This document shows, piece by piece, positions 6,539 through 35,100 of a DNA stretch of 38,703 bases (its first letter is position 1; every line of letters starts with the position of its first letter). The stretch is from positions 1-38,703 of the forward strand of contig PABA01000149.1 of the NCBI GenBank assembly GCA_002699025.1. Reading direction: 5' to 3'. The position numbers and the translations under genes are program-made. Source of the DNA: Sandaracinus sp. GTDB taxonomy: Bacteria > Myxococcota_A > Polyangia > Polyangiales > Houyiibacteriaceae. The notes under the pieces are model-generated. The model saw only the letters and a list, made by a program, of their open reading frames with translations. It ran no database searches and was not told where the DNA came from.

Positions 6539-8551
6539 CTACTCGAAGGCGGGCTCGAAGACGGGCGCGAGCTCGCGCGAGGTCGACGTCGTGACGTGGT
6601 TGTTGTCGTAGTAGAGCGGCTGCCCGTCGCGGATCGCCCAGCAGGTCTCCGCGTCGCAGAAGAACCCGCGCGGGTCGAGGAAGCCGAGCCCCTCCCGCCC
6701 CTCGAGGGCCGCCGCCGCCCGATCGAAGGACGCCTGCCGCGCGTCGACCTCCGCCCGCGGCACCTGCGCCCGCTGGAGCGCGATCTCGCGGCCGCTCTCG
6801 GCGTCGCGGATCATCGCGTTCGCCAGCGCCGTCGCGTCGTATTCGGGGATCTCGGGGATCGGCCGGAGCACGTAGACCCGCTTGCCGAGCCCGAGCAGGT
6901 GCTCGACGGTCCCCTCGAGCGCCTCCTCGAAGACCTCCCGCTGCGGCCGCGCGCCGCGCTCGCCGTCGATCGGCCAGAGCGCCACCGTGTCGCCCTCGTT
7001 CGTGCCCACGCCCCGGCCCTCGGAGTAGTAGGCCCAGCGCCCGATGAGGATGACGGTCTCGATGGCGTCGACCTCCTCGATCACCCGGAGCACGCGCGCG
7101 TTCGTCTCCGTGCAGGCCTCGTCCTCGGCCGTGTCCGCCACGCTCTCGTCCTTCTGGACGCCCCTCAGCGGCGGGCAGCCGGCGCGGTTCGAGTAGAGCC
7201 CGGCGCGCCCGGCCTCGGTGGCCGCGGCGTCGGCGCCGTGCACCAGGATGCCCGCGTGCGAGTCGCCCCAGAGGAAGTAGCTCGGCGCCTCCACCTCCGG
7301 GTCGCCGATCAGGCAGAAGCCCTCGGCCACCCCGTCCGGCCCGGCCCACTCGCCGCAGCGCTCGGCCTCGGGGAAGAAGTCCTCGGCGGCCACCGCGAGG
7401 CGCATCTCCTCGTCCGAGAGCCGCCCGGCCGCGCCGCCGGTCACGTGGAGCGCGACGCCGGCGCCCATCCAGAGCGCGCTGACGACGGCGGCGCCGATGA
7501 ACATCTGCTTGCGGCTGAAGCCGTCCTTGCTGCGGAAGGGCGCCTCGACCCAGCGCCAGGAGACGGCGGCGACCGCGATGGAGGCGACGACCACCAGGCT
7601 GCCGCTCATCGCGTCGAGCTCCCCCTCGGGCGTGAGCAGGCGGCCGAAGACGATGAAGGGCCAGTGCCAGAGGTAGAGCGAGTAGGAGATCTTGCCGATG
7701 AAGACGAGCGGCGCGAGGCCGAGGAGCTTCGCGCCCCAGGTGGCCGGCGTGAGCCCGGCGTGGATCACCATCAGCGTGCCGACGCAGGGCAGGAGCGCGC
7801 TCCAGCCCGGGAAGACCGTCTCCTTGGTGAAGGTCGCGACGGAGACGAGGATCATCCCGAGGCCGACCAGGCCGCTCGCCGAGGCCAGGCCGCGGCTCCG
7901 GAAGGCGGGCAGGAGGCCCACCGAGAGGATGGAGCCGAGGAGCATCTCCCAGGCGCGGAAGGGGAGCAGGTAGAAGGCCGCCGACTGGTGCGAGCCGACG
8001 ATCAGGACGCAGGCGCCGAGTGAGAGGAGGAGCGAGACGACGATGATGGGCTTGAGCCAGCGGAGGGCCCAGCGGTGGATGGCCCAGAGCATCGGCGGGA
8101 AGAAGAGGTAGAACTGCTCCTCGACCGCGAGCGACCAGGTGTGCAGGAGCGGCTTCAGCTCGGCCGGGCCGTCGAAGTAGCCCGCCTCGAGGAAGAAGAG
8201 GATGTTCGAGCCGAAGACGGTGACGGCCACCAGGCTCTGGCCGAAGTCCTTGAGGAGCGAGGGAAGGAGGAGCCAGTAGGCGAAGGCGACGCTGAAGGCG
8301 ACGACCACCACCAGGGCGGGCCAGAGGCGGCGCACGCGGCGCTCGTAGAAGCGGACGATGGAGAAGCGCTTCTCGCCCATCTCGCGATGGAGGATCGCCG
8401 TGATCAGGAAGCCCGAGATCACGAAGAAGACGTCGACGCCGACGTAGCCGCCTTCCATGAAGGGGATCAGGTCGACGTGGAAGAAGACGACGGGCAGCAC
8501 GGCGATGGCGCGCAGCCCGTCCACGTCGGGTCGATACTTGAGGGTAGCCAC
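6539..8551 (-). CDS. Acyltransferase-3 / SGNH fusion O-acyltransferase (OafA/YrhL type)
   Basis: 670 residues from a GTG start at 8551. Residues 1-350 form the acyltransferase-3 membrane domain with about ten helices: YRPDVDGLRAIAVLPVVFFH (Arg14, His25), then GGYVGVDVFFVISGFLIT and the LHTWSLAVEEQFYLFFP motif. Residues about 360-670 form a periplasmic SGNH domain with FLWGDSHAG (Ser431) and DNNHVT (Asp649, His652). Such fusions take an acyl group, usually acetyl, across the inner membrane and transfer it to O-antigen, peptidoglycan or other glycans. The domain order and length match OafA-like enzymes. A GGA motif about 7 bp upstream could be the ribosome site. It lies alone between repeat DNA and a divergent promoter region, so the glycan acceptor is unknown; the flippase 3.3 kb away is a possible partner. 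Confidence 0.9.
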   Translation of the reverse strand: MATLKYRPDVDGLRAIAVLPVVFFHVDLIPFMEGGYVGVDVFFVISGFLITAILHREMGEKRFSIVRFYERRVRRLWPALVVVVAFSVAFAYWLLLPSLLKDFGQSLVAVTVFGSNILFFLEAGYFDGPAELKPLLHTWSLAVEEQFYLFFPPMLWAIHRWALRWLKPIIVVSLLLSLGACVLIVGSHQSAAFYLLPFRAWEMLLGSILSVGLLPAFRSRGLASASGLVGLGMILVSVATFTKETVFPGWSALLPCVGTLMVIHAGLTPATWGAKLLGLAPLVFIGKISYSLYLWHWPFIVFGRLLTPEGELDAMSGSLVVVASIAVAAVSWRWVEAPFRSKDGFSRKQMFIGAAVVSALWMGAGVALHVTGGAAGRLSDEEMRLAVAAEDFFPEAERCGEWAGPDGVAEGFCLIGDPEVEAPSYFLWGDSHAGILVHGADAAATEAGRAGLYSNRAGCPPLRGVQKDESVADTAEDEACTETNARVLRVIEEVDAIETVILIGRWAYYSEGRGVGTNEGDTVALWPIDGERGARPQREVFEEALEGTVEHLLGLGKRVYVLRPIPEIPEYDATALANAMIRDAESGREIALQRAQVPRAEVDARQASFDRAAAALEGREGLGFLDPRGFFCDAETCWAIRDGQPLYYDNNHVTTSTSRELAPVFEPAFE

Positions 8552-8697
8552 GAGCGTTCCGTCCCTTCGGCGGCGCGACGATAGCGGGCGCGCGGGGGCG
8601 AGTACAGCCGCCCCGGGGTTGCTCCGGCGGGGCCCGTCCCTCAGCCTTCGACTGGCCGCTGCCCGCCGCTCGCGGCGAGGGCCGACGAGGACGATTC
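8552..8697. promoter_or_regulatory. Divergent intergenic region
   Basis: 146 bp separate the starts of the minus-strand acyltransferase and the plus-strand glycosidase-like gene, so promoters for both must lie here. I see no clear -35/-10 pair or operator. A GAGGA ribosome site at 8686-8690 serves the plus-strand start at 8698. Confidence 0.4.
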
Positions 8698-19210: not shown

Positions 19211-21484
19211 GTGGGGGATGGCGGCGCGACGAGGAGGCGGTGGGCCCGGTGCGGGCTCGCGCTCCTCCTCCTCGCGGGCTGCGGCGACGCGGGCGACACG
19301 CAGGAGCTCCGGGCGTGGCGCGTGGACGGCCCGCCGGGGACGGCCCGTTCGCTCACCGTGCCGGCTCACCTCGAGCTGCCACGCCGCCGGCTCCGCTACG
19401 CGCTCGAGGCCGAGGTGCCCGTCCCCGAGCGGTGGCGCGGCCGGCGCCTCGATCTCCACTGGACCCACCTGCCCGCTCCCGTCGAGCTCGAGGTGGACGG
19501 CGCACGGGTCCCCCCGCTCGACCCGGCCCCCGACCTCTACCGTCGCCCGGGCCCCCACCGCTGGCACCTCCCGGCGGACGCGGGGGCGGACGGCTCCCTG
19601 CACCTCCGGCTGATCGTCGAGCACACCTGGGCGCAGAGCGCGTGGGTGGACGTCGCTCCCCGGCTGCTGCCCACCGGCGGCGAGGACCCGCTCCTCGACG
19701 ACACCCAGCTCCACAACCGCGCTGGCGCCACCGTGGCCGTCGTCGCGATCCTCCAGTTCGCCCTCTTCTTCCTGGTCGTCTTCCTCTGGAATCGGCAGCG
19801 CCGGGAGTACCTCTTCTTCTTCGTCCAGTTCCTCGGCGGCGCCGCCTACCCGGCCTTCTGGCTCGGCGTGCTCACGCCGGTGGTCGGGCGCGCGGACGGC
19901 CTGGTGGTGGCCGCCGCGCTCGTCATCGCCCCGGTCGCCGCGGTGAAGGTGACGCACCACTACTTCGCGCTGGAGCCGACGCGCTTCGAGCGACGCTTCT
20001 GGGCCGGGCTCGCCACGCTCGGCCTGCTCGCCCTCTTCGTCTTCCGGGACCCCTACGTCATGAGCTACGCGGGCGGCCCGGTGGTGGGGGTCAGCGTCGG
20101 CATCGCGACGCTCTACCAGCTCTACACGGGCATCCGCCTCTGGGGGTCCTGGGACCGGCTCACGCTCGTCTTCTTCCTGGGCGGCTGGCTCGGGCTCGGC
20201 GCGCTCGCCTGGATCGACGCGCTGGCCTGGTCGGGCGTCGCCGATCTCCTCCACGGGATTCGTCCGGCCTGCTGGGGCCTCGCGATCTACGGCATCCTGC
20301 AGGCGCTCTTCGTCGGCCGGAGCTACTTCCGCTCGCTCGCGCAGGCCGACGCCCTGAACGAGCGCTTGCAGGAGCAGCTCGGCGCGGCCGAAGCGCGGAA
20401 GGCGGAGCTCGACGCGCTGAACACGGAGCTCCGGCGTCAGCTCGGGGAGCGCTCGCAGCGCATCGTGGAGGCGCTCGCGGCGAGCGGCTCCCTCGCCGAG
20501 ACGACGCTGGAGCCGGGCGACGTGGTCCACGGGCGCTACCGCGTGATCGGCGAGCTCGGCACGGGGGGGATGGGCACCGTGTACGAGGTCGAGCGGGAGA
20601 CCGACGGGAAGCGGCTCGCGCTGAAGGTGGCCCAGGAGCGCCGCGGGGTCGCGCTCGCCCGGCTGGCGCGCGAGGCCCAGGTGGCGGCGCAGGTGGAGCA
20701 CGAGAACGTCGTGGCGATCGTCGACGTGGACGTGGCGTCGGGTGGCTTCGTCTTCGTCGTCCTCGAGCTGGTCGAGGGGCCGAGCCTCGCCGACCCGGGC
20801 GCCGCGGACCGGCCCGTGCCCTGGTGCCTCGACGTGCTCGCGCAGGTCGTCGAGGGGCTCGGCGCGCTCCACGCCATGGGCATCGTCCACCGGGACCTGA
20901 AGCCCGGGAACGTGCTGCTCGCCGAGCGCGAGGACGGGGGCGTGCGCGCGAAGATCACCGACTTCGGCATCAGCCGCAGCGTGACCGCGCCCCTCGACGA
21001 GGGCGTCACCGTGCCGACGGCCGAGCTCGGCAAGCGCGCCGGGGCGCCTCTCTCGGACGTGACGGCGACCGACGCGCTCTCGGTCACGCCGGGGGGAACG
21101 GTGCGCCCGAGCGCCGCCGGCAAGCTCCACTCGCTGACGCGCACCGGGCTCGTCGCCGGCACCCCGTTCTACGTCGCGCCCGAGCTGACCGAGCTGCCCC
21201 CGCGGATCACCGGCGCCGCCGACCTCTTCTCCTTCGGCGTGCTCGCCTACGAGCTGCTCACCGGGCAGCGCCCCTTCGCCGTGCCGCTCGCGGAGCTCCA
21301 GCTCGATGGCGCCGCGCTCCCCGAGCCGCTCCCGCTCCGCGAGGCCTGCGCCGCGCTCGAGCCTGCGCTCGCGGACCTCTTCGAGCGCTGCCTCGCGCCC
21401 GAGCCGGAGGCGCGCCCGAGCGTCAGCACGCTGCGGGCCGCCCTCGCCTCGCGGCCGCGAGCGCAGGGGAGCGAGGGCGCCTGA
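19211..21484 (+). CDS. Membrane receptor Ser/Thr protein kinase (lipobox, 7TM-DISM-like, coiled coil, kinase)
   Basis: 757 residues from a GTG start at 19211; no clear ribosome site. The signal peptide ends in LLLAGC (Cys24). Residues about 30-165 form a beta-rich exported domain, and about 170-385 contain around seven hydrophobic helices, the layout of 7TMR-DISM receptors. A coiled coil (about 388-425) leads to a Hanks-type kinase: Gly loop GTGGMGTVYEV (about 451-461), Lys472 in LALKV, HRDLKPGNVL (His560, Asp562), DFG (Asp584), and an APE-like FYVAPEL near 656. All catalytic residues are present, so it should be active. A long Ser/Thr-rich insert sits between DFG and APE. It probably couples an envelope ligand to protein phosphorylation; ligand and targets are unknown. 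Confidence 0.88.
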   Translation: MGDGGATRRRWARCGLALLLLAGCGDAGDTQELRAWRVDGPPGTARSLTVPAHLELPRRRLRYALEAEVPVPERWRGRRLDLHWTHLPAPVELEVDGARVPPLDPAPDLYRRPGPHRWHLPADAGADGSLHLRLIVEHTWAQSAWVDVAPRLLPTGGEDPLLDDTQLHNRAGATVAVVAILQFALFFLVVFLWNRQRREYLFFFVQFLGGAAYPAFWLGVLTPVVGRADGLVVAAALVIAPVAAVKVTHHYFALEPTRFERRFWAGLATLGLLALFVFRDPYVMSYAGGPVVGVSVGIATLYQLYTGIRLWGSWDRLTLVFFLGGWLGLGALAWIDALAWSGVADLLHGIRPACWGLAIYGILQALFVGRSYFRSLAQADALNERLQEQLGAAEARKAELDALNTELRRQLGERSQRIVEALAASGSLAETTLEPGDVVHGRYRVIGELGTGGMGTVYEVERETDGKRLALKVAQERRGVALARLAREAQVAAQVEHENVVAIVDVDVASGGFVFVVLELVEGPSLADPGAADRPVPWCLDVLAQVVEGLGALHAMGIVHRDLKPGNVLLAEREDGGVRAKITDFGISRSVTAPLDEGVTVPTAELGKRAGAPLSDVTATDALSVTPGGTVRPSAAGKLHSLTRTGLVAGTPFYVAPELTELPPRITGAADLFSFGVLAYELLTGQRPFAVPLAELQLDGAALPEPLPLREACAALEPALADLFERCLAPEPEARPSVSTLRAALASRPRAQGSEGA

Positions 21485-21906: not shown

Positions 21907-23895
21907 TCAGGGGTAGAAGGGCAGCGTCGTCGAGACGACCTGGCCGACGTGGTTCGGCGACTCGCGGTAGATAAACGCGATCTTGGTGTCGGGCGGGTAG
22001 CTCGCGGAGCTCCAGGGGAGCGGCACGGCCGCGATGTCGCCCCCGGTGAGCATCGGCTCGTTCATCGCGTCCGCGAGGGCGATGTTCCCATAGTTGGGGA
22101 TCACGAGCGTCGGCTCCTCGAGCGTCCCCCGGAAGTCGTCGAGGATCGAGAGGTAGACGAGGTCCCCCTTGGTCCCCTGGCCGAAGAGCGCGCACACGCC
22201 GCAGCCGTTCGGCCCGGGCTGCGGGTCGAGGCGCTCGGGCGCGGCGGTCCAGCTCTCTCCCGCCTCCCAGGGGCAGTAGGCGCGGCTCGGCTCGTACCCG
22301 CTGTCGCCGTAGACGGGAGCGCTGCAGCTCGAGCCGACGATCGGCGTCGAGAGCTCGACCCCCTCGGCGACCAAGCCCTGCTCCTTCCCGAGGGAGAGCA
22401 GGCGATCGAGCACCTCGGCGGAGGGCTCGGCCCGACCCATCCCCGCCGCGCAGGGCACCTCGCAGCTCGGGCAGGCCGACGCGAGGACGCTCTGCAGCGC
22501 GCCGCAGGCCGTGACCCGGCGCGCCTGCGGGCAGAGCTCGCCCGCGTTGCCGTTCCAGGGGCAGAGGTCGGCCCGCTGGTCCATCGTCTCGCCGGCCCAG
22601 AAGAGCCAGTCGGCGACGTCGTGGTTCGAGAGGTCCGGCCGGTAGCCCCAGACGAGCGTCGCGGCGGCGGCCACGGACGCGACGCCCATCGAGGTGCCGG
22701 TCCAGATGCCGAGGAGCTCGTCGGTCGGCTCGGCGCGGGGCCGCAGCGTGCCGATCGAGCCGCCGCCCCAGAAGGAGGTGCGCGTCCGCTTCACCTCGAT
22801 GCGGTTGTCGGCGCTCACGGCCTCGCCGTAGCCCTGGAGGCGCGCCATGCCGCCGTCGCGCGTCAGGCCGATGGGCTCGCCGTCCCAGCCGACGGCGCCG
22901 GCCGCGTACACGATCGGGCGCTCGAGGTTGCAGGACGAGGGCGTCGACTCCCAGGCCGCCGGGTAGAGCGCGCCCGCTCCATCCGCCGACGAGGTCTGGT
23001 TGCCAGCGGCGGCGAGGACGAGGGCACCCGAGCAGGTGGCCCAGTCGAGGGCCGCGCGGACCGCGGCGACGGTCTGGGCCTCCGGCGCGAGCGGGTCCCC
23101 GTCGCGGTGCTGGTAGCGCGGGTGCCAGCCGACGGCGAGCGGGATGATCGTGCGCTCGCCGCCGTCGAAGACCGCCTGCTCCAGGGCCTGCGCGAGGCGC
23201 GCGATGCTGCCGTAGTGGCCGCCCTCGGTGCCGTCGTCGCCGCCCTGGTCCAGGACGAGCTGCGTGTCGAAGTCGGGGATGCAGACGTCTTCGCGGCCCC
23301 GCGGGCAGGTGCTCCGGCGGATGACCTGGCTGATGGCGCGGCCGTGGAGGTACTCGCCGGTGGTCGGCTCGAGCTCGTGGGGGTCGCTGTCGGCGGAGCT
23401 GTCGAGGATCGCGACGTGGACCCGCTGGGGGATGCCGCGGCCCTCGGGGAGGTAGCGCGGCGCGCCGACCTGGCGCTCGTAGGCGGCGGCGTGGTCCTGC
23501 CAGACGTACTCGAGCGGATCGGTGCTGCCGAGGGGGACGACGCCGAGGCAGTCCGCGTCGGTCCAACTCACCCCCGCCGCGCCGGTCCCGGGATCGCTCG
23601 GCAGCGTGGCGAGCGTCGGCGCGCCCACGCCGGTCCACTCGTAGAGGCAGAAGGGCTGGCCGCTCGGATCGGTGATGCCCCAGGGATCGCTGAAGAGCGG
23701 CTGCCCGAGCCAGCCGCTGCCGCCGCCCGGCGCGGGGCAGCCGCCCATGGACGGAACGCCGACGCGGGTCCCCGGGTCGCAGCTCGCGGCGCTGAGGGCG
23801 CTGGCGCGGGCGGCGACGGGGTCGGCCTCGTCGGGGGTGGCGGCCGTGCACGCGCCCAGCAGGAGCGCGGCGGCGATGGCGGCGATGGACCTCAT
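21907..23895 (-). CDS. Subtilisin-like (S8) serine protease lipoprotein
   Basis: 662 residues from ATG 23895, preceded by a strong GAGGGGAGA ribosome site. The signal peptide ends in LLGAC (Cys16). The S8 catalytic set is present: Asp165 in VAILDSSAD, His184 in YLHGRAIS, oxyanion Asn299 in AAAGNQTSS, and Ser402 in GTSMGVAS. Asp and His are only 19 residues apart, closer than usual. Residues about 440-660 form a Cys-containing C-terminal part without a clear family. It should be an exported, membrane-anchored endopeptidase. It starts 33 bp after the CHAT gene stop and is the last gene of the sigma-CHAT operon, so it may process a substrate of that system. Confidence 0.9.
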   Translation of the reverse strand: MRSIAAIAAALLLGACTAATPDEADPVAARASALSAASCDPGTRVGVPSMGGCPAPGGGSGWLGQPLFSDPWGITDPSGQPFCLYEWTGVGAPTLATLPSDPGTGAAGVSWTDADCLGVVPLGSTDPLEYVWQDHAAAYERQVGAPRYLPEGRGIPQRVHVAILDSSADSDPHELEPTTGEYLHGRAISQVIRRSTCPRGREDVCIPDFDTQLVLDQGGDDGTEGGHYGSIARLAQALEQAVFDGGERTIIPLAVGWHPRYQHRDGDPLAPEAQTVAAVRAALDWATCSGALVLAAAGNQTSSADGAGALYPAAWESTPSSCNLERPIVYAAGAVGWDGEPIGLTRDGGMARLQGYGEAVSADNRIEVKRTRTSFWGGGSIGTLRPRAEPTDELLGIWTGTSMGVASVAAAATLVWGYRPDLSNHDVADWLFWAGETMDQRADLCPWNGNAGELCPQARRVTACGALQSVLASACPSCEVPCAAGMGRAEPSAEVLDRLLSLGKEQGLVAEGVELSTPIVGSSCSAPVYGDSGYEPSRAYCPWEAGESWTAAPERLDPQPGPNGCGVCALFGQGTKGDLVYLSILDDFRGTLEEPTLVIPNYGNIALADAMNEPMLTGGDIAAVPLPWSSASYPPDTKIAFIYRESPNHVGQVVSTTLPFYP

Positions 23896-23928
23896 GACTC
23901 TCTCCCCTCTTCTCTCTCGGCGGCCTGG

Positions 23929-26685
23929 CTAGCGCGTGAAGACGCGATAGTCGGGAAACGTTCGGACGACACGGGCCCAGGCCTCCGCGTCCGGGGACAC
24001 CTCGGCGAGCGCGCGGCCGAAGCGGCGCGCCTCGTCGTCCTCGACGGGGGCGATGGTGCCGACGGCCAGCTCGGCGCCCGCGAGGACGAAGGCCTGGGCG
24101 ACGCCCACGGGCACGAGCCCCTGCGCGGACGCGGTATCGCAGCCGTTGAGGGCGACCCGGGCGGGGGCGCGCGGGAGAGCGAGGACGTCGACGAGCGTGA
24201 GCCGGACGCCGTCGGCGAGCTCCAGGGCGCCGCCGTGGACCTCGCTCGCGATGCCGTGGCCCGCGTAGTGGAACTGCCGGACACCCCCGAGCGCCCCGAG
24301 GACGCGATCGCGGGTGGCCGCCGCGCCTTCGAGGAGCGTCGCGTCCTGGCGGGCGGCGAGCGCGCGCCCTTCGCGGAGCGCGCCGTCGAGGGTGCCGGTC
24401 GGGTCGACGAGGACGAGCCGGCCCGCGCCTCGCCACGAGCGCGGCGGGCGCGGCGGGAGGTCGAGGGCGTGGACGATGGGGAGGTCGAGGGGCGGGCGGG
24501 CGAAGGCCTCGGCGCCGGCGCCGAGCACCTCGACGCGGCGGGCGCCCTCGGCGAGGTCCTCGAGCTCGGGCCAGGCGCCCGGGGCGAGGCGCGCGCCGCG
24601 CACGGTCGGCTTGCGCGCGGAGCCGTCGCGAGCGTCCGGCGCGTCGTCCCACGCGGCGCGCGCAGCGAGGACCAGCCGGCCCTCGGGGTGCGGGAAGACG
24701 AGCACGCGGAGCACGTCGTCCGGAGCCTCGGGGAGGGGCGCGTCCGAAGCGGCGCCTCCGTGCTGCACGCCGGCGTCCTCGAGCGCGCGCTCGAGCTCCC
24801 CGAGGCGGGCGCGCCGGTGGGCCTCGAGCTCCGCGAGCTCGTCGACGGGCGCCTCCCAGAGCGCCCCCGCGTCGGCCTCGAGGGCCTGGCGGGCGCGCAT
24901 GTAGCGAGCGATGGCGCGCTCGAGCTCGGCGTCGCCTTCGGTGGCGAGGGGCGCGCGGGCGAGGGCGCGGCGGCGCGCGAGGCGGAGCGCGCGGTAGGCC
25001 TCCGCGGGTCGCTCCGCCTCGAGGAGCGCCTCGGCGAGGCGGGCGGCGCTCGTCCAGCGCGCGCCGACGAAGGCCGTCGTGCCGCGGAGGGCGAGGGCCC
25101 GGACCTCCTCGTCGAGCACCGCTTCGGCGGCGCGGTAGGCCTCGACGGCGTCGGCGTCGCGGCCGAGGGCGCGGAGCGCGTCGCCGCGGCCGAGCGCCGC
25201 GCGCCACTGGAGCGGCGGCGCGGGGGCGAGGCGCGCGCGGGTGGCGAGGGCGTCGAAGCGCGCGAGGGCCCCGGCCGCGTCGCCGCCCTCGAGGGCGACC
25301 CGCGCCGCGAGCGCCTGGCGCCAGCCGCGCACCTCCGCCGTCGCGCCCTCCGCGCGCTCGAGGTGCGCGCCGGCGGCCGCGAGGTCGCCGCGGAGCCAGG
25401 CGGCGAGGGCGAGGTTCACCTGGACGTTTTCCCGATCGCCCGGCGCCGCGTCGCAGGCCGCGTAGGCGGCGAGGGCCTCCTCGAGCGCGGCGTGGGGCGC
25501 GCGCCCGACCGGCGCGGCTCCCCCGGACGCCTCGGCCGCGAGGAGCGCGACCCAACCCCGCGCCGCCGCGTGGTGCGCGCGGAGGCAGCCGCCCTCGAGG
25601 TGCGGCTCGGCGGCCCGCAGCGCCTCCGTCGCGGCCTCCGGTCGCCCGAGCGCCTGCAGGACCTCCGCGTGCTTGAGCGAGGCGTTCGCGATCAGATCGA
25701 TCACGCGGAAGCGCTCCGCCAGCGCGCGCGCCTCCCGGAGGAGCCCGTCCGCGTCGCGGAGCTGGCTGAGGCGGCTGGCCAGCATGGCGCGGTGGTAGAG
25801 CACCCGCGCGCGGGCGCCGGGCAGCTCCGGGAGGAGCTCCTCGACCGAGGCCAGCGTCCGGCGCGCGTCGCCGAGCTGCCAGAGGCGCTGCTGCTGCACC
25901 CAGCCCGCGGCGATGGCGTCGTGCACGGCGGCCGTGAGCGCGCCGGCCTCGCGCTGGGCATCCCGGGCGGCGAGGAGCGTGCGCGCGGCGTCCTCGTCCT
26001 CGCCGAGGGTGAGGAGCACGCGGCCGAGGCGGGAGAGGAGCGCGGCGCGGCGCGCGTTCGCTTCGCTGCTGCGTGACGGGGCCTCGCCATCTTCGGCGCG
26101 AGCGGCATCCTCTCCGAGGGCGGCGCGGAGCCGGTCGCGGACGGCGGGTGTGCGCGCGTCGCCGAGCTCCTCGAGGAGCGGCACGGTGGGCGCCGGGAGG
26201 ACGCGGAGCGCGTACCGGCGCTCGCCGCGCGCGAGCTCGAGCGTGCCCGGGACGAGCTCGAGCTGGGCGCGGTGGCCGCCGGCCGTCGGCGCCCACTCCA
26301 GATCGTCGGGGGAGGTCGGGGGCGCGCCCGGGACGAAGAGCGTGGCGGCGCCGGCGAGGCACCCCTCGCGCGTCCGGGTGCAGTCGACCTCGAGCTCCAG
26401 GGGGGCGGGCGCCTCGGCGGCGTCGTCCGGCTCCTCGGCGCAGGCGGCGAAGAGCACGCTCGCGAGGACGGGCGCGAGCGGCGCGCGGACGGTGAGCCCG
26501 CGGGCCGTGAGCGCGCGGGCGATGAACGCGCGGGCGGTGCTCCCATGGAACCTGCTCGCGCGGCCGGTGAGCGCGCGGGCCGTGAGCGCGCGGACGCCGT
26601 GGCCGCGGGCCCCGTTCCCACGGGTCTCGTTCCCGCGGACCCCGTTCCCGCGGAGCCGGTGGGCGCGCCGAGCGGCGGGGCTCAT
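23929..26685 (-). CDS. TPR-CHAT protease with predicted lipoprotein anchor
   Basis: 918 residues from ATG 26685, whose codon overlaps the stop of the gene before it (ATGA). Residues 1-68 are an Arg-rich, five-residue-period repeat (RGNGA, RALTA and variants). A hydrophobic stretch with lipobox-like LFAAC (near 82) follows. Residues about 90-150 are a beta domain, and about 180-620 are Ala/Leu-rich TPR-like helices. The C-terminal CHAT domain (about 690-918) has the caspase-fold dyad: His810 in FHYAGHG and Cys849 in LNGCDTA, so it should be an active cysteine protease. CHAT proteases act as triggered processing enzymes in several bacterial signalling and defence systems. The exported location is inferred from the lipobox; the 68-residue head before it is abnormal for a signal peptide. 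Confidence 0.88.
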   Translation of the reverse strand: MSPAARRAHRLRGNGVRGNETRGNGARGHGVRALTARALTGRASRFHGSTARAFIARALTARGLTVRAPLAPVLASVLFAACAEEPDDAAEAPAPLELEVDCTRTREGCLAGAATLFVPGAPPTSPDDLEWAPTAGGHRAQLELVPGTLELARGERRYALRVLPAPTVPLLEELGDARTPAVRDRLRAALGEDAARAEDGEAPSRSSEANARRAALLSRLGRVLLTLGEDEDAARTLLAARDAQREAGALTAAVHDAIAAGWVQQQRLWQLGDARRTLASVEELLPELPGARARVLYHRAMLASRLSQLRDADGLLREARALAERFRVIDLIANASLKHAEVLQALGRPEAATEALRAAEPHLEGGCLRAHHAAARGWVALLAAEASGGAAPVGRAPHAALEEALAAYAACDAAPGDRENVQVNLALAAWLRGDLAAAGAHLERAEGATAEVRGWRQALAARVALEGGDAAGALARFDALATRARLAPAPPLQWRAALGRGDALRALGRDADAVEAYRAAEAVLDEEVRALALRGTTAFVGARWTSAARLAEALLEAERPAEAYRALRLARRRALARAPLATEGDAELERAIARYMRARQALEADAGALWEAPVDELAELEAHRRARLGELERALEDAGVQHGGAASDAPLPEAPDDVLRVLVFPHPEGRLVLAARAAWDDAPDARDGSARKPTVRGARLAPGAWPELEDLAEGARRVEVLGAGAEAFARPPLDLPIVHALDLPPRPPRSWRGAGRLVLVDPTGTLDGALREGRALAARQDATLLEGAAATRDRVLGALGGVRQFHYAGHGIASEVHGGALELADGVRLTLVDVLALPRAPARVALNGCDTASAQGLVPVGVAQAFVLAGAELAVGTIAPVEDDEARRFGRALAEVSPDAEAWARVVRTFPDYRVFTR
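26477..26680 (-). repeat. 15-bp tandem repeats encoding the CHAT protein N-terminus
   Basis: Units of the type GTGAGCGCGCGGGCC (26492, 26507, 26522, 26567, 26582) grade into CCGTTCCCGCGGACC-type units (about 26597-26660), all at 15-bp or 30-bp steps. They encode the Arg-led pentapeptide head of the CHAT protein. The region has no alternative start codon in frame between 26685 and the signal peptide. Confidence 0.8.
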
Positions 26686-27698
26686 GGGATCCGCTCCAGG
26701 ACGAGCTCGAGCCGGCGCGCGTGGCGCTCGAGGGTCGGCGCGGGGGCCTCGTCGAGGACGAAGACGATCGTGTGCTCACCGAGGTCGGGCAGGAGCTCGC
26801 CGGCCGGGCCGACGACGCGGACGGCGCCCGTGGCAGAGACCTCCAGGGGCGCGTCCCAGCGTCGTCCGTCGACGAACGCGGCGGCGTGCACGGGGGCATC
26901 GACGCGGGTCTCGGGGCGGAGGCGGATCTCGAGGCGGTCGGTCGGGCCGTAGCGCGCGGGGGCGTCGGCGCTCGAGCGCGTGGAGGCGTCGCCGCCGAGG
27001 CGCTCGAGCTGGTAGCCGGGGAGCGCCGCGCCCCGCGGGAAGAGGACGAGGAGCGCGATGGCGGCGGCGGCGAGGGCGCCCCCGAAGGCGACCAGGGCGC
27101 GGCGGCGACGGCGTCGGGCGGCGAGATCCACCGGCGCCTCGGCGGGGCGCGCAGCGCCGGAGCCCGCGGCGCCGTCGCCGTCGCCCTCGCCTTCGCCCGC
27201 CTCGGCGCGGCGCTCCGCGGACGCGCCGGCGTCCGTGTGGACGCCGCCAGGCTCGCCGCCCGCGCCGGACGCGGCCCGGAGCTCCGCGGACGCGCCGCCA
27301 GGCTCGCCGCCCTCGCCCGACTCGGCCCGGAGCTCCGCGGACACACCGCCCTCGCCCGACGACTCGGCCTCTCGCTCTCGCCCGTCGCTCGGCGAGCTCC
27401 CGTCGCGGCCGGCGGCCAGCTCGAGGACCTGCTCGCGGACCCCCACGTCCACCGGCGCGTAGAGCGCCCGCAGCTCCGCGATCGCCTCCGCGTCCAGCCC
27501 GCGTGCCTTCGCGTCCGCCTCCGCCTCGGCGAGCGTCCCCTCCCCGCGCGCGAGCGCCTCCCAGGCGACCTCCTCGGGCGCCGCGCCGTCTTCCGCGGAC
27601 GCCGCCGCGTCGTCCACGCCGTCCTCCGCACCGTCGTCCGCGCGCGCGTCCTCGCGCGCCGCCGCGCCGAGCGCCGCCAGCAGCTCGTCCTCGGTCAC
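26682..27698 (-). CDS. Single-pass membrane protein, putative anti-sigma-like regulator
   Basis: 338 residues from a GTG start at 27698, with GGAGGGGGC just upstream; the start overlaps the sigma-factor stop (GTGA) and its own stop overlaps the CHAT start (ATGA). Residues 1-100 are acidic and helical (VTEDELLAALGAAARED, EVAWEALARGEGTLAEAEAD). Residues 100-180 are a low-complexity linker. RRRRRR at 195-200 precedes one membrane helix (201-221), which sets the N-terminus inside. About 115 beta-rich residues follow outside (DRLEIRLRPETRVDAPVHAA, GEHTIVFVLDEAP). Position and topology suit an anti-sigma factor, but the protein has no cysteine, so the HxxxCxxC zinc motif is absent. The role is inferred; I do not recognise the family. 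Confidence 0.75.
   Translation of the reverse strand: MTEDELLAALGAAAREDARADDGAEDGVDDAAASAEDGAAPEEVAWEALARGEGTLAEAEADAKARGLDAEAIAELRALYAPVDVGVREQVLELAAGRDGSSPSDGREREAESSGEGGVSAELRAESGEGGEPGGASAELRAASGAGGEPGGVHTDAGASAERRAEAGEGEGDGDGAAGSGAARPAEAPVDLAARRRRRRALVAFGGALAAAAIALLVLFPRGAALPGYQLERLGGDASTRSSADAPARYGPTDRLEIRLRPETRVDAPVHAAAFVDGRRWDAPLEVSATGAVRVVGPAGELLPDLGEHTIVFVLDEAPAPTLERHARRLELVLERIP
27240..27341 (-). repeat. Two 51-bp in-frame repeats
   Basis: The block beginning GGCTCGCCGCC recurs 51 bp apart (27250 and 27301). It encodes two SAELRA-SG-GGEPGG units (residues 120-136 and 137-153) in the linker of the membrane protein. A third, degenerate ASAERRAEAGEGEG unit follows. It lengthens the cytoplasmic tether. 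Confidence 0.75.
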
Positions 27699-28306
27699 GA
27701 CGCCCCCTCCGCCGCCGACTCCTCCGCGAGCGCGCGCGCCAGCTTCCGGATCCGCGAGCGCCAGGCGTAGACCGCGTCCCGCTTCATGGCGAGCTCCGCG
27801 CAGACCTCCTCCACGCTCCGCTGCTCCGCCCAGAGCAGCTCGAAGACGCGGAAGCCGAGCGGGCTCAGCCGCGCGCGCAGCCCCTCGAGGAGCACGGCGA
27901 CCGCCTCCCGATCCGCCACCCGCGCCTCCGGCACGTCGCTCCGCGGCGCCTGCAGCTCGCGCCCGACCGTCTCCGTGGCCTCCTCCGTGAACGGGCTCCG
28001 CTTCCGCGTCCGGAGGATGCCCACGACCTCGCGCTCCGCCACCACGCCCACGAAGGTCGAGAGCGACGCCCCCCGCGCCGGGTCCCAGGCGCGCAGCACC
28101 TTCGCGTCCTCCGCGAAGAGCCGCGCGAACACCTCTTGCACCAGGTCCTGCATCTCCTGTCGCGCGTCCCGCCCTCGCGGCCCGTGCCGCCGGAGCGCCC
28201 GCGCCACGCGGATCTGCACCGCCGGCAGCAGCCGGTCGACCAGCTCCCCCGCCGCCGCCGGATCCCCGCCGTCGAGCGCCCGGGAGAGGAGCGCCTCCCC
28301 CTCCAT
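27695..28306 (-). CDS. ECF-like sigma-70 family sigma factor
   Basis: 203 residues from ATG 28306. Region 2 is recognisable at about 50-98 (EMQDLVQEVFARLFAED, then FVGVVAEREVVGILR). Region 4 is at about 145-195 (LRARLSPLGFRVFELLWAEQ, SVEEVCAELAMKRDAVYAWR, SRIRKLARAL), where the helix-turn-helix contacts the -35 element. Region 3 is absent, as in ECF-type sigma factors. It should direct RNA polymerase to a small regulon, perhaps including its own operon. It is the first gene of an overlapping set (sigma, membrane protein, CHAT protease, then subtilisin). No clear ribosome site precedes ATG 28306; longer in-frame starts exist but would cover the inverted repeats upstream. Confidence 0.87.
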   Translation of the reverse strand: MEGEALLSRALDGGDPAAAGELVDRLLPAVQIRVARALRRHGPRGRDARQEMQDLVQEVFARLFAEDAKVLRAWDPARGASLSTFVGVVAEREVVGILRTRKRSPFTEEATETVGRELQAPRSDVPEARVADREAVAVLLEGLRARLSPLGFRVFELLWAEQRSVEEVCAELAMKRDAVYAWRSRIRKLARALAEESAAEGAS

Positions 28307-28395: not shown

Positions 28396-28460
28396 GCGTC
28401 ACGTTCCGCACGCCGCCCCCGCGCACGCACGCGCCGCCCGGAGCGATCGGAACGTGACGC
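28396..28460. promoter_or_regulatory. 13-bp inverted repeat with 39-bp spacer upstream of the sigma gene
   Basis: GCGTCACGTTCCG (28396-28408) and CGGAACGTGACGC (28448-28460) are perfect inverted arms. GGAAC-type words are typical -35 elements of ECF promoters, and on the minus strand CGGAAC lies at 28403-28408, so the downstream arm may double as a promoter element for the sigma gene. Autoregulation is a reasonable inference, not shown. Confidence 0.5.
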
Positions 28461-28692: not shown

Positions 28693-29127
28693 TCACGGAC
28701 CGTCCCGCATCGCGGCAGCGCTGCCCTGGTGGGGGAGCTTGTGCTGTCTCCACGGGACGATCTGAATCGTCTGACCACGATAGTGATGGGGGGTCAGCTG
28801 GTTCTCACTCAGCCATCTGCGCACCGACGTGTTCGTCCAGTTCCGGCGCCCGAGGAAGCCCCTTCGATTGAACTGCCGGGCCATGTGGCGGCGGATGTGC
28901 GGCATGTCGAACCGGTGGTAGCCGGTCATCCCCGGAACGATGAACGTGTCCGTGGCCCAGGGCCCGAAGTCGGGGACGCCCTCGACGAAGTTCACGGCCT
29001 CCCCCGGCTGGAGCCCCCAACGCTCCGGGTCGTGGGGCGTGAATCGGCTGTTGCCGCGGACGTTCTCGAACGTGCCCGTCTTCGCCGAGGGTCCTCGCCA
29101 TCGGGAGGGGGGCGTCCACCGGCACTG
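28693..29127 (-). other. Hint-released C-terminal nuclease module of the RHS protein
   Basis: This stretch encodes the 144 residues after the predicted Hint cleavage point (Asn2685, codon 29128-29130). It begins QCRWTPPSRWRG, contains PHDPERWGLQPGEAVNFVEG, VPDFGPWA and HRFDMPHIRRHMARQFNRRG, and ends LTPHHYRGQTIQIVPWRQHK, LPHQGSAAAMRDGP. The HH...QIVP..xH...PHxGSAA pattern is that of WHH/GHH-type HNH/EndoVII toxin nucleases. The first His pair and His2814/His2818 would hold metal and water. The variant residue before HH (Pro instead of Trp or Gly) makes the exact subfamily uncertain. Confidence 0.7.
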
Positions 29128-32100
29128 GTTGTGCGCGCGGATCGCGAGGTCCGTGACGAGGTACTCGTGGTCCCCCTCGACCTCGAGGTTGTAGACCGTG
29201 TAGGTCCCCTCGAGGGGTCGGACGTTCTCGAGGACGACGTGACCTTCTCGGGTCTGCAGCACCTCGCCGTCCGCCAGGTTCGCGACCTGCACCCAGTCGT
29301 TCCGCGTCAGCGAATAGAGCGGATGCAGCCCGGTCGCGCGGACGGAACGCTGGTTCGCGAAGGAGAGCTCGTAGAGGTCCCGGCTCGCGTGCTCGACGGT
29401 CGCGAGGACGGCGCGCCCGGGGCCCTCTTCGACCTCGGGCGCCTCGAACGCCTCCACGTCGGCCCACCCGGAGACCGCGAGCTCCTCGAGCTCCATCCAC
29501 AGGCGGTCCCCGGCGCCCCTCACGCCGCGGTCCGCGAACCACGCGCGAGGGCGGAGGAGCGTGATGCGGTGCTCGACCCCCGTCCGTTCATCGAGCAGGC
29601 GGAGCGTCGCGGCGCGCCAGGTCGCGTCGACGTTCGACGCCGAGCCTCCTTGGTACGTGCCGACGCGATCACCCACGCGGATCGCGTCGATGCGGCGGGT
29701 CTCCCCGCTCGCCGAGGCCACCTCGGTGTCACCCGTGAAACACGTGGGGTTCGGGACCCGGGGCCCCGAGAGCGCCCCGCCCGCGGCCATGCTGAGGAGC
29801 CCGATGGCGAGCCCTCCCGCCATCCGGGCCCGGGTGACCTCGTCGGCGTTCGCGACCGCCTCGACGGTCCTCACCGTGGTGCCGATGGGGTCGACGACCA
29901 TGTCGGCGGCCCCCTCGGCGGTCGAGAGGATGGCGTTCCCCGCACGCTCCGCTTCCTGGAGGAAGGCCTCCTGGCTGAACCCCGCGTTCTGCAGGCGCTC
30001 CCAGACCAAGATGGGCTGAGCGATGGGTCCGCCCTCGAAGAAGGCGCCAGCGGCTTCGGCCCACAGGTCCGGCGGCGGCGACGGTCGCTGCGGGGACGCC
30101 GTGATCGTCATCCGGGCGGTGTGGACGACGCCCGTCTCCGCGGCGATCTCGACGGCGTGGTCCTGGATCCAGCCGTCCACGAAGGACTGCATCTCCGGAG
30201 AGACCTCCACGGGGCCCGCCGCGTCGCCCTCCAGCCCGAGCGGGTCGCGGACCTGGAGCAGGTTCCCGCTCACGTAGTGATAGCTGTTGAGCGCCTCCCC
30301 ACCCCCCGCCTCGTGGATGGCGAGCGGGTCGGGCGTCGCCCACCTTCCCAGCCGCGGCACCAGGTAGCGCTCGCCGAAGTAGGTGAGACCCACCTCTTCG
30401 TCGCCTTCCTTCCCGGTGAACCCCACCGGCTCGGGCTGCACGTCACCGCTGGAGCGGTAGGTCTCACGGGCGCCGTTGGGGTAGTAGGTGCCGTGCTCGA
30501 GGAGCTCGCCACTGACGATGTCGATGACGGCGGAGGTGGTGCCGAGCAGGTCCGAGATGGGCACCGTGATCCGGTGGTTCCGGTCGACGCCTGGCGTCGG
30601 CGCGCCGCTTCGCCAGACCATGCGGGCACCGGCGACGAGGTACTGCGTCTCCGTGCCGAAGACGGGATCGTCCTCGTAGGCGTCCAGGCCGCGCACGACG
30701 CCCCGGCGCTCCATGTCGCCGGGGACGACCATCAACGCGATGCGCTCGCCAGCGGTGTCGAGGGTCTGCTTGACGCGGCGCTGGTTCCCCTGGTCGTACC
30801 GATGACGCTGGCGCGCGGCGAGCTGCCAGCTTCCCGCGCCGCCGCTCCGGTCGTAGCGGCGCGCTTCGGCGAGGCGGTTCAGCTCGTCCCAGCGGTACTG
30901 ATAGTGCTGCTCGGTCGCGCAGCGGCAGCTCGTGCGTAGCGCGCTGCGGCGGGTCTCGAGGGGTCCGCCGGGGTCGACGCACGCGCCCGCGGCGTCGGCG
31001 CAGGTGCCGTGCACCGTCATCATCTCGAGGTTGCCGCTCTCGCCGTAGTCCATCTCGACCCAACCTCCGCGGTCGCTCGGCGGGCCCTCGAGGTCGGCGG
31101 CGAGGTAGAGCGCGCTGGGTCGCGAGCTCGGGTCGATGTCGGCGCCGTTGTGGGTCGCGCCGAGGCTCCGCTCGTAGAAGTGGTGCGCGTCATCGCTCCA
31201 GTCGGTCACGTTGCCGAGCCAATCGACATCCCAGGTCAGGCTCATGACGCGCTCGCCGGGCACGGTCCCGACCACGGGCGCCGGGCTCGTGCGCATGGGG
31301 TCGTGGGCCCAGGTCGCGGCCATCCCGGCGCGCCAGTCGGTGGCCGGGTCGGTCGTCGCCCCGCCGTAGTCCATCTCGACGCCGACGACCCGATAGAGCG
31401 CGTCGTGCGCGGCCCACACGGACTGCGGTCGGTGACCGACGGGCCACTCGGACGCGATCCGCTCGTCGTCCACCTCCTTCAGGTTGTCGGCCGCGTCCCA
31501 CACGAGCGCCTGATCGGCGACGACGCTCACGGCGCCGAGGGGGGCGCTCGGGTCGCTCGGCGCCGTCGGGGTGCGCGTCGTCCACATGCGCGTCGGGCGG
31601 CGGCGCGCGTCGTACGTCGACCGGGTCTGCGTTCCGTCGGCGTAGGTCGTCGAGCCGACGAGACCGTCGCGGAGGTACTGGATCGAGCTGACGATGGGCT
31701 GCGTGGCGATCGAGGCGCCGGGAATGGCCATCGCTCCGTCGACGAAGGCGGGCGCGCCGCCCCCGTCGATCACGTGCGCCAGCGCGGCGGAGGGGAGCCC
31801 GCGATGGTTGAAGGCCATCGTGCCCGCGACGCGCATGCCCGTGCTGGGATCCTCGGGGAGCACGACCGCCGTACCGCGCCCGCCGTGGTCGTAGCTCGTG
31901 GACACGACGTACTCGTTCGCCTCGTCGAAGACCACGCTGCCCGCCGCGGCGTCGCCCATCTCGACGGCGAGCGCGCCGTCCGGAATCGCGGAGGGGATGG
32001 AGGGGGCCGCGGGGATCATGGCGAGCTGCCGGGCGCTCCAGACGGCCTGACCGCGGCCGTCGTAGGCGACCACCATGCGCACGGAGCGGTCGACGCTCGC

Positions 32101-35100
32101 GGTGAGCCGGCCGAGCACCCCGGAGGTCGTCGCCGGGAAGTCCGCCATCGCGCTCGGATCGGGAGCCCAGGTGCCGGCGTAGCGGTCGAAGTAGTGCCGC
32201 ACGTCGACCGGCTGGGCGGCCGTCGTCTCGCCCATCGCGATCCGACCGGCGGGGACGTCGTCCACCGGGAGCTCGTGGCCCTGGGCCTCCCCGCACGACA
32301 CGTACTGCTCGCCGACGAGCCGACCGCCGTGGTCGTAGAAGAAGTTCTGACCGCAGCCCCGCGGGTCGCGCACGGCCACGAGATCGCCCCCCCGGTTGAA
32401 GAGGTAGCGCCAGGTCCGGTTCGTGGCGTCCCGGCCCGGAAGCGGACTGTCCGTGTCCGGATCCGTCGAGGCGATGCGCCGGCCGACGCTGTCGTACACG
32501 AAAGAGCGCTCGACCCGGTGATCGCCCACGATGGTGCTCGCGCCCATGGGCTGGTCGCCCGTCGTCTCGGCCCGCTCGAGGAGAACCATCGAGCCGTCGG
32601 CGCGGTAGCGCATCCAGAGACGGTAGTACTGCGTGCCGCCGAGACCGGGCTGCCGGTTTCGGAGGATGCGGTCGATGACCCGGCCATGACCGTCGACGCG
32701 CTGGGTCGTGCAGGTGCCGACGGCGAAGTGCTCGGGATCGTTGTCGAGCGGGTCGCAGACGTCCGTGCTCAGCGCGTGATGGTGTGTCCACGTCGCTTGG
32801 TTGTGCTCGTCGTAGACGGCGATGACCCGATCGAAGGCGTCGTGGAGGCTCCACCGATAGGGCACGGAGGGCAGAGCGAGGACGGCGGCCAGGTCCGTCG
32901 GGGCCCCCGTGAAAACGTCCGGCTGGTAGCTGCGCCGGACGGCTCCCCGCGCCGAACGAGTCGTGACGCTGTCACGAATCCACTCGCCCGGAGCGTCGCC
33001 GGTCGAGAGCGTCGCACGCGCTTCACCGCTGCCGGACACGAAGCTCACCGTCTCGAGGACCTCGGCGCCGAGGGCCCCCGTGCAACGCAGCTCGGTCAGC
33101 TCGCGCACGAGCGCCACCGGACGCGCCTCCGGGTCCGCGTCCTCGTAGAGGAAACGCGCCGTCGGCCGACCCGCCGGGCAGCCCGTCGCCGGCGGCGGGA
33201 TCTGCGCGCTCAAGCGACCGAGCCCGTCCTGCGTCACCCGATCCTCGAGCCCGTTCGGGTCGGCCATCGACACGACGGCGCCGAGGCCCCGGTCCCAGGT
33301 CGCCGTCGAGGTCAGCGTGGTCCAGCCGCCCGCCCCGTCGCGCCCGGTCGCCGTCGACTCCGCGATCACGAGCTGCCCATAGGCCGGCTCGTAGCTCAGC
33401 TCGGCCCAGCCGAGGCAGCCGACCCCCGTCGCCACGTCGCCCCCCGCGCAGGTGCGCACGGCCTGACCCCAGGCGTCGACCTCGGTGGTCGTGAGCGCGT
33501 CCTCGAGCACGCCCGAGAAGCCGAGCGCCTCACCGTCGCCAGCGAAGGCGTAGACCTGCGGCTGGCTCACGTGCCCATCGACGCGCACGACGTTGCCCCG
33601 GTCGTCGTAGTGCGTCGTCGTGTGGCCGAGCGCCGTCGCGTCGCCGTGGCCCGTCGTCCAGCTCTCGGTCGGACGCCAGAGCCAGCTCCCGAGGTTCTCG
33701 ACGGCCGCATGCGAGACGATGGACTCGTCCGGCAGGGCTTCCCCGAACGCCCCGCGCACGCGCCCGTGCGCCGTCGCGCGGAGCGTCTGGCCGAGGTTCG
33801 TGACCGCATCCGTGGTGCTGCGCACGTGCGCCCAGCCCGCGCCCCGCACGGCCACCGTGTGCGGCGCCCGCTCCTCGAGCAGCTCCCCCGCCGCGCCCTC
33901 GTGCCGCACGCTCGGAAGCGAGACGCTCTCGCCCCCCGGCGCCCAGCCGACGACGTCGTAGAGGAGCGTGTCCTCCTGCGTCCCGAAGGCGTGGCGAACG
34001 ACGCGCCCGTCGAGCCCCTCGTGGAGCCGCCGCACCGTGAAGCCGTGGTGGGTGGTCTGCAGGTACCGGCCGTCGTCGTCGAAGGACTCGCTCAGCCAGA
34101 GGCGCCCGGCGAGCGGGTCGTTCGGGTTGTCGGCGAGCCGCTCGCTCGCGAGCTCCGTCGGTCTCCGCCCCTGCAGGAAGTGGGAGCGCGTATGCCCCGT
34201 CGGGTGGTAGGTGCCGCCCACGGCGGTCGCGTCAGCGGCCCCGAAGCCGCGGAGCTCCTGCTCGAAGCCCTCGTAGTAGGCGTCATGGTAGGCCTGGCGC
34301 GTGACCCGCTCGGTCGCGACGCCGCCGACCACGTCCAGCCGATCGCTCGTGCGCACCTCCCGCACCACGCGCACGACCACCGGGCTACCGCCGGGCCGGA
34401 AGGCGCACTCCCCGGTGAGCGCCTCGAGCTTCGCGTCGCAGCTCTCCGCGAGCGTGGTCCAGGTGAACTCGCCCTCGCCCGCGTCCGCGTCCCGGAGATC
34501 GCGGAGGTAGTCCTCCGTGCTCACGCCGTACTCGAGCTCCGTGCGCCCGCCGAGCGGGCTCGTGATCCGCGTGAGCAGCCGCGGCCGCATGCCGCCCACC
34601 AGATCGACCCAGCGCCAGTCGTCGGCCGTCCCGAAGACCACGTCGAGCGTGCCGCTCCCGTCCACGTCCGCGAGCCGCACCCGCGGCGCGTAGGCCGGCG
34701 CGAAGACGCCCGTCTCCGCCGAGACCCGGCGCGTGAACCCGGCGCCGCTCTGGTTGAACCAGACGTGCACCACGCCCGTGTCGACCTGCACCACGTCGGT
34801 GGCGCCATCGCCGTCCACGTCCGCGAGGTGCACCCCCGCCAGATCCGATTGGAGCTCCGCCGGCGCCGCCTCCATCTCGACGTAGCCGCCGCCCCGCACC
34901 CCCGGCGTGCAGTGCTCGAAGTCGCCGAAGCCCTCGAGCCCGCGCCCGGGCCAGTAGATCGCGCGCCCGCGCCGGAGCTGCACCAGGTCCTGCAGCCCGT
35001 CGCCGTTCATGTCCGCGAGCTTCAGCTCCGGGTCGGCGAAGTCCACGCGCGTGCCGGCGCTCGGCAGGCAGACCTCCCGCGGCGCCTCCGAGAGCACCCA

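Follow-up and report, generated by a model that had tools for sequence, protein, structure and literature searches.

A gene cassette that recurs in many myxobacteria, and that is described here from Sandaracinus sp., joins an extracytoplasmic function (ECF)-type sigma factor and a predicted transmembrane anti-sigma factor to a predicted exported protease of the CHAT type. The copy under study lies in a stretch of 38,703 nucleotides, hereafter the window (GenBank assembly GCA_002699025.1, contig PABA01000149.1, positions 1 to 38,703). A plausible account, which we place slightly short of an even chance, is that the exported TPR-CHAT protease acts on the transmembrane anti-sigma factor outside the inner membrane, thereby releasing the ECF sigma factor. 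The evidence comes from the conservation of the cassette, its catalytic residues, fusions of its parts and its likeness to the DdvS/DdvA system of Myxococcus xanthus.

The four-gene cassette and its conservation

The genes are given below in the order sigma, MEM, CHAT and S8.

27695..28306, reverse strand: sigma gene, ECF-type sigma factor of 203 amino acids
26682..27698, reverse strand: MEM gene, membrane protein and predicted anti-sigma factor of 338 amino acids, GTG start
23929..26685, reverse strand: CHAT gene, TPR-CHAT protease of 918 amino acids, predicted exported lipoprotein
21907..23895, reverse strand: S8 gene, subtilisin-like protein of 662 amino acids with a lipobox-like signal

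An earlier sequence-only reading had placed these genes in one tightly packed array, and their positions, overlaps, spacing and catalytic residues were all confirmed from the sequence. The sigma and MEM genes overlap by 4 bp (GTGA), as do the MEM and CHAT genes (ATGA), and S8 starts 33 bp past the CHAT stop codon behind a purine-rich stretch. The active sites of both proteases are likewise intact as had been claimed; they comprise His810/Cys849 in CHAT and Asp165/His184/Asn299/Ser402 in S8. The window is one contig (C160) of a 9.24-Mb genome; its region has about 80% G+C and many spurious open frames, so the genes were read from their relatives rather than from open frames. Two further sets are encoded in the same genome. 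On contig C196 the four genes stand in the same order as in the window, while on C61 the sigma and MEM genes are divergent from CHAT, and a 233-residue lipoprotein-like protein after CHAT replaces S8.

Fifty-eight neighbourhoods were compared, 18 chosen through the sigma gene and 40 through MEM. The sigma search covered 57 genomes, that of Sandaracinus included, and gave 12 places at E <1e-20, the window counted; six more loci came from named records, most of them Myxococcota bins, with one record (L129) labelled Acidobacteria. For MEM, 8 candidates per genome were scored in 317 genomes of the class, and matches at E <=1e-3 were found in 91 of them (56 of the 178 good-quality genomes), weak partial matches counted. 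The 40 MEM loci were hand-picked from the upper part of this match list.

Across the 58 loci, sigma is present in 57, MEM in 57, CHAT in 48 and S8 in 28. Among the 40 loci chosen through MEM, a sigma gene lies immediately upstream in 39, the remaining one being at a contig start; CHAT occurs in 33 and S8 in 20. The 4-bp overlap of sigma and MEM is readable in all 10 sigma-chosen loci with the sigma-MEM order; the genes at locus L044 instead run CHAT-MEM-S8-sigma, and the remaining one of the 12 sigma places ends at a contig edge. In the MEM-chosen loci the overlap is readable in 20 of 39, and the spacing in the others lies between 50 bp of overlap and a gap of 241 bp, as measured from script-chosen starts. 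Of five CHAT loci outside the class, three (L154, L156 and L157) have sigma-MEM-CHAT-S8 and L158 has sigma-MEM-CHAT.

These counts indicate that the association with CHAT is more than chance. The claim of a conserved unit is supported: the genes are mostly unscattered, and CHAT lies within the same fetched stretch at 48 of 58 loci, with genome G003 as an exception. If unrelated genes had merely come to lie together by chance in a dense genome, the absence of CHAT or S8 from some loci would fit, but the cassette recurs over several families and beyond the class, and once the families of the cassette and of the fusion loci are set aside, the most widespread neighbour is a generic kinase family found at 14 of 58 loci. 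The probability left to chance packing is close to negligible.

The sigma factor and its membrane partner

The sigma protein fits the ECF sigma factors, as judged from its sequence, with regions 2 and 4 only in about 200 amino acids. It scores 25.4 bits against Pfam Sigma70_r2 (cut-off 24), 18.7 bits against region 4, which is under the cut-off of 25.7, and 41.5 bits against NCBIfam sigma70-ECF, under the cut-off of 42.9. Ten relatives share 38-53% identity with it, and among the 11 aligned members Sigma70_r2 is matched by 10 and r4_2 by 8 at E <=0.1. The 11-member profile matches the ECF sigma factor 9isn in the PDB (E 1.1e-9).

A perfect 12-bp inverted repeat, CGGAACGTGACG / CGTCACGTTCCG, lies upstream of the window's sigma gene at 28397-28408 and 28448-28459. 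The complete repeat did not turn up in front of the other 11 sigma genes inspected. The repeat contains GGAAC, which we take to resemble an ECF -35 element.

Three parts of MEM can be told apart by prediction.

27405..27698, reverse strand: MEM residues 1-98, predicted five-helix inner domain (AlphaFold model)
27042..27125, reverse strand: MEM residues 192-219, predicted to form the single membrane helix, preceded by six Arg
26685..27029, reverse strand: MEM residues 224-338, predicted Ig-like beta domain on the outer side

The AlphaFold model has a mean pLDDT of 73.2 and a pTM of 0.40, with residues 41-90 at 86-95 per ten-residue block, and its five helices fall within residues 3-98. Six Arg, from residue 195, stand directly ahead of the membrane helix. 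Exactly one helix is found in 45 of 48 members, and Lys and Arg are more numerous before the helix than after it in all 48, so that the N-terminus is predicted to be inside. The pairing of a sigma factor with a predicted anti-sigma factor, which the sequence-only reading had proposed, is thus upheld at the level of prediction, with a single N-in helix, an inner helical domain and an outer Ig-like domain. The identification of MEM as an anti-sigma factor is itself a prediction drawn from context, topology and fusions resembling DdvA.

The CHAT protease

Three residues of the CHAT protein are of particular relevance.

26440..26442, reverse strand: lipobox-like Cys82
24256..24258, reverse strand: catalytic His810
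24139..24141, reverse strand: catalytic Cys849

The CHAT family PF12770 matches this stretch of the genome with 47.9 bits. An hmmscan of the whole window protein returned weak TPR families alone; of 11 aligned relatives, nine match PF12770 by the same method. Two loci do not span the active site, and all 46 CHAT proteins that do so retain His and Cys; together with the fold of a fusion model, this gives these proteins a His/Cys dyad in a caspase-like fold.

By a simple script, the 47 CHAT proteins above 250 bits comprise 30 with a lipobox behind a hydrophobic stretch, 10 with a hydrophobic stretch alone, four fused to MEM and three with neither. The proposed envelope location of CHAT was thus not refuted, as 44 of 47 members have a lipobox, a hydrophobic signal or a fusion beyond the helix by this script. 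Cys102 and Cys109 (window numbering) of the N-terminal domain are nearly invariant, which fits an exported domain. The script count leaves out locus L105 (G168:C163), where CHAT runs across two frames, owing to a break in the gene or to misassembly, and S8 is encoded on the opposite strand. In the window, the first 81 CHAT codons (26440-26685, reverse strand) encode Arg/Ala-rich, RALTARAL-like repeats ahead of the lipobox, and the true start may be internal.

The linkage also holds genome-wide. In eight whole genomes, with up to 116 candidates scored per genome, all 14 CHAT matches above 400 bits lie at cassettes; apart from two partial matches in Sorangium-group genomes, given below, the remainder reached at most 129 bits. 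A broken CHAT gene in genome G163 also adjoins MEM.

MEM-CHAT fusions and likeness to DdvA

At four loci (L096, L099, L102 and L103), one of them in Polyangium mundeleinium, MEM and CHAT are encoded as one chain. These fusions link the two proteins and place CHAT beyond the membrane helix. Between the MEM-CHAT and S8 genes, the fusion loci also encode a protein of 956-975 amino acids that looks exported in at least three of them and whose family was seen in those four loci only.

The fusion chain resembles the solved structure of DdvA (PDB 8rot, 8rw5), with the TPR and CHAT fold aligned along it. The sequence of DdvA, which was found with the CHAT profile, contains a CHAT domain that retains His and Cys; phmmer with the fusion missed it, and it was not among the 60 matches listed for the mixed profile. 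In M. xanthus, DdvS and DdvA are described as an ECF sigma factor and its transmembrane anti-sigma factor (PMC4374960; PMC12288465), and DdvS is described as driving an antiphage island (PMC12288465). The cassette shares the ECF sigma factor with a transmembrane partner (sigma and MEM each at 57 of 58 loci). The earlier remark that no described pathway with exactly these four parts was known needs correction, as DdvS/DdvA, an ECF sigma factor with a CHAT-ended transmembrane anti-sigma factor, is a precedent.

The window protein is nonetheless not filed as DdvA. Whereas DdvA is a single 991-residue chain ending in CHAT, the anti-sigma domain and helix of the window are on one protein and TPR-CHAT on another, and they form one chain only in the four fusion loci. 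Furthermore, the window's CHAT is a predicted lipoprotein, and an S8 protein with a CxxC domain is added. No antiphage-island genes of the kind found with DdvS are among the conserved neighbours of the cassette. Even so, the cassette may work like DdvA.

The presence of CHAT in cis in both DdvA and the Polyangium fusions also fits signalling without cutting, in which TPR-CHAT as a receptor would bind a ligand and reshape the anti-sigma factor. Consistent with such a receptor, the external signal that inactivates DdvA is described as unknown in PMC4374960. A protein that is not an enzyme would, on the other hand, tend to lose its catalytic residues, yet DdvA and all 46 CHAT proteins that span the site retain both of them. 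We consider a non-cutting role unlikely.

The S8 protease and the CxxC domain

The S8 protein scores 29.8 bits against PF00082 (cut-off 21.8), and its sequence has the Asp/His/Ser triad of Peptidase S8. Asp, His, Asn and Ser are kept in 27 of 28 S8 proteins, the 28th being cut. At its end, S8 carries a domain that usually starts P-Q-P-x-P-x-C-x-x-C.

21913..22233, reverse strand: C-terminal CxxC domain (D4) of S8

Many cassettes that lack S8 have, near CHAT, a gene for a small exported-looking protein with a similar domain. At E <0.01 the domain is found at 32 of 58 loci, all with CHAT (27 on S8 and five stand-alone), and in about 10 further CHAT loci a C-terminal CxxC was recognized by eye alone, in some cases on the opposite strand. 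S8 as a fixed partner, as first proposed, is not supported: it occurs at 28 of 58 loci, fewer than have the C-terminal CxxC domain, whether as part of S8 or as a stand-alone protein. In the eight whole genomes, for each of which at most 150 candidates were scored, all 13 CxxC profile matches are at cassettes, and genome G043 gave no match. As most of the matched loci had supplied the profile seeds, the weight lies on the absence of CxxC matches elsewhere. The S8 proteins of L154-L157, outside the class and not used as seeds, match the profile with E values from 1e-8 to 2e-4. At locus L088, a 90-residue frame with a CDVC motif (8359-8631) lies beside a sigma-MEM pair on a short contig without CHAT, and is possibly a lone CxxC protein.

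This distribution bears on what CHAT acts upon. It is conceivable, though rather doubtful, that CHAT mainly processes or activates an exported CxxC protein, either S8 or a small one, and that the sigma and anti-sigma factors set its amount only. The confinement of all 13 matches to cassettes and the domain on the S8 proteins of L154-L157 fit this idea, as do the domain's C-terminal position in the S8 and small proteins inspected, which would suit a tag or a tail that is cleaved off, and the place of S8 as the last gene of the window's array. It leaves the MEM-CHAT fusions and the likeness to DdvA unexplained, and 16 of 48 CHAT loci lack a CxxC domain at profile level, though about 10 of them show one by eye.

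Comparison with other regulated sigma factors

In the Craspase system (Csx29-Csx30-CASP-sigma, type III-E CRISPR), Csx29 cuts Csx30, an inhibitor of a sigma factor (PMC10028731). As described there, Craspase is RNA-guided and its substrate is not presented as a membrane protein, whereas the cassette has a predicted exported CHAT protein and a membrane anti-sigma candidate. No Cas genes are among the conserved neighbours, the genomes not having been searched for Cas7-11.

DegS is a PDZ trypsin-like protease. In the RseA/sigma-E system with DegS and RseP, the anti-sigma factor is cleaved outside first and then further; the cassette has CHAT and S8 instead of DegS, and the outer domain of MEM is predicted to be Ig-like. 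The RseA/sigma-E system is also named in PMC10028731.

Group ECF54, with a model member from Geodermatophilus, is described as having subtilase and CHAT genes in its context and a proposed proteolytic regulation; it is said to act without an anti-sigma factor and to have a carboxypeptidase in its context (PMC8999054). Compared by description, the cassette differs in having a membrane partner coupled to sigma. The proposal for ECF54 lends some weight to the idea that MEM is a scaffold or other membrane factor and that sigma is controlled otherwise, as does the failure to detect an anti-sigma family match in MEM. The start overlapping sigma in 10 of 10 loci with the sigma-MEM order, the N-in single helix and the DdvA-like fusions fit an anti-sigma factor instead. 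We regard another role for MEM as very improbable.

A proposed mechanism and points against it

In the mechanism favoured here, cleavage of MEM by CHAT, the helical domain of MEM would sit inside the cell on the sigma factor, a single crossing would follow, and the Ig-like domain would lie outside. The CHAT lipoprotein would dock on the Ig-like domain, as suggested by their union in one chain in Polyangium. A signal read by the TPR part would switch CHAT on, and CHAT would then cut MEM on the outer side, a step suggested by the fusions, the kept active site, Csx29/Csx30 and DdvA. A general intramembrane protease could complete the release, as for RseA. The CxxC domain, on S8 or a small exported protein, may serve CHAT as its dedicated ligand or as a second client, with S8 as an effector joined to this domain in roughly half of the cassettes. 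The cassette would thus be a split DdvA, with sensor-protease and anti-sigma factor on separate chains. Beyond this, we suggest only tentatively an outward-facing caspase pathway, in which an exported protease of the separase/Craspase type, triggered by its own CxxC ligand domain, often carried on a subtilisin, would cut a split DdvA-type transmembrane anti-sigma factor and thereby switch on genes, with several such channels operating side by side within a cell.

Several observations weigh against this mechanism. No Pfam family is common to any two of the 48 MEM members at E <=1, with one member alone matching TgpA_N (7.5e-5). The helical domain aligned to a zinc anti-sigma profile (17 proteins from related genomes) with an hhalign probability of 6.3%, the two controls that ran giving 0.0% and 0.6%, and had no PDB profile match below E 0.3; a fold search with the MEM model was filled by matches of the Ig-like domain, so that the helical domain was barely probed. 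DdvA superposes only loosely, with a Foldseek TM-score of 0.20-0.22 over the model, and in VIA the scores of gingipains, separases and Craspase equal or exceed that of DdvA. The cis arrangement of CHAT noted above belongs here as well. With regard to linkage, neither sigma nor MEM accompanies CHAT and S8 at L155, which lies outside the class; CHAT is missing from nine loci with sigma and MEM, four of which are close to a contig end; and the CHAT gene of G003 is on another contig with no sigma, MEM or S8 nearby. Two Sorangium-group genomes (L152 and L153) have partial, unlinked CHAT genes of 243 and 156 bits, possibly decaying copies. Distances in mirror-tree comparisons are correlated (rho 0.44-0.64), as expected for any co-inherited genes, and such results are weak evidence. 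Lastly, no gapped promoter motif upstream of 57 sigma genes rose above shuffles, and the few enriched 6-8-mers were at differing positions or in close relatives; an autoregulatory promoter is thus supported by no conserved motif.

Other neighbouring genes

Immediately upstream of the sigma gene, a large protein (28693-37182, reverse strand) has matches to SpvB, TcdB-middle, FG-GAP and the RHS core, as well as weak ones of the Hint-like kind. By these domains it resembles a polymorphic-toxin-type or surface protein. It is not in the families common to at least four neighbourhoods. A convergent Ser/Thr kinase (19211-21484, forward strand) was dropped as a fifth part, as generic kinases occur in 14 of 58 neighbourhoods and are probably background. 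A reading as a defence system was also rejected, with PADLOC models giving a weak BovA match alone (E 0.047).

Significance

Among the matches listed from titles and abstracts of the open-licence literature, there was no description of the cassette, with its split anti-sigma candidate and exported CHAT, or of the CxxC domain. The single ideas are already in print, namely a proposed proteolysis for ECF54 with CHAT and subtilase in its gene context, DdvA, and Craspase.

The best-known CHAT/separase proteases, Csx29 and separase, act within the cytoplasm or the nucleus. The CHAT lineage described here is predicted to be exported, with its catalytic pair kept in every checkable copy and its genes locked to an ECF sigma factor. 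DdvA thereby gains natural split relatives, in which the sensor, the anti-sigma candidate and a candidate ligand are separate proteins, and cassettes occur in named strains such as P. mundeleinium and Sorangium cellulosum So ce26. If true, the proposed mechanism would be a new variant route for passing outside signals to genes in many myxobacteria.

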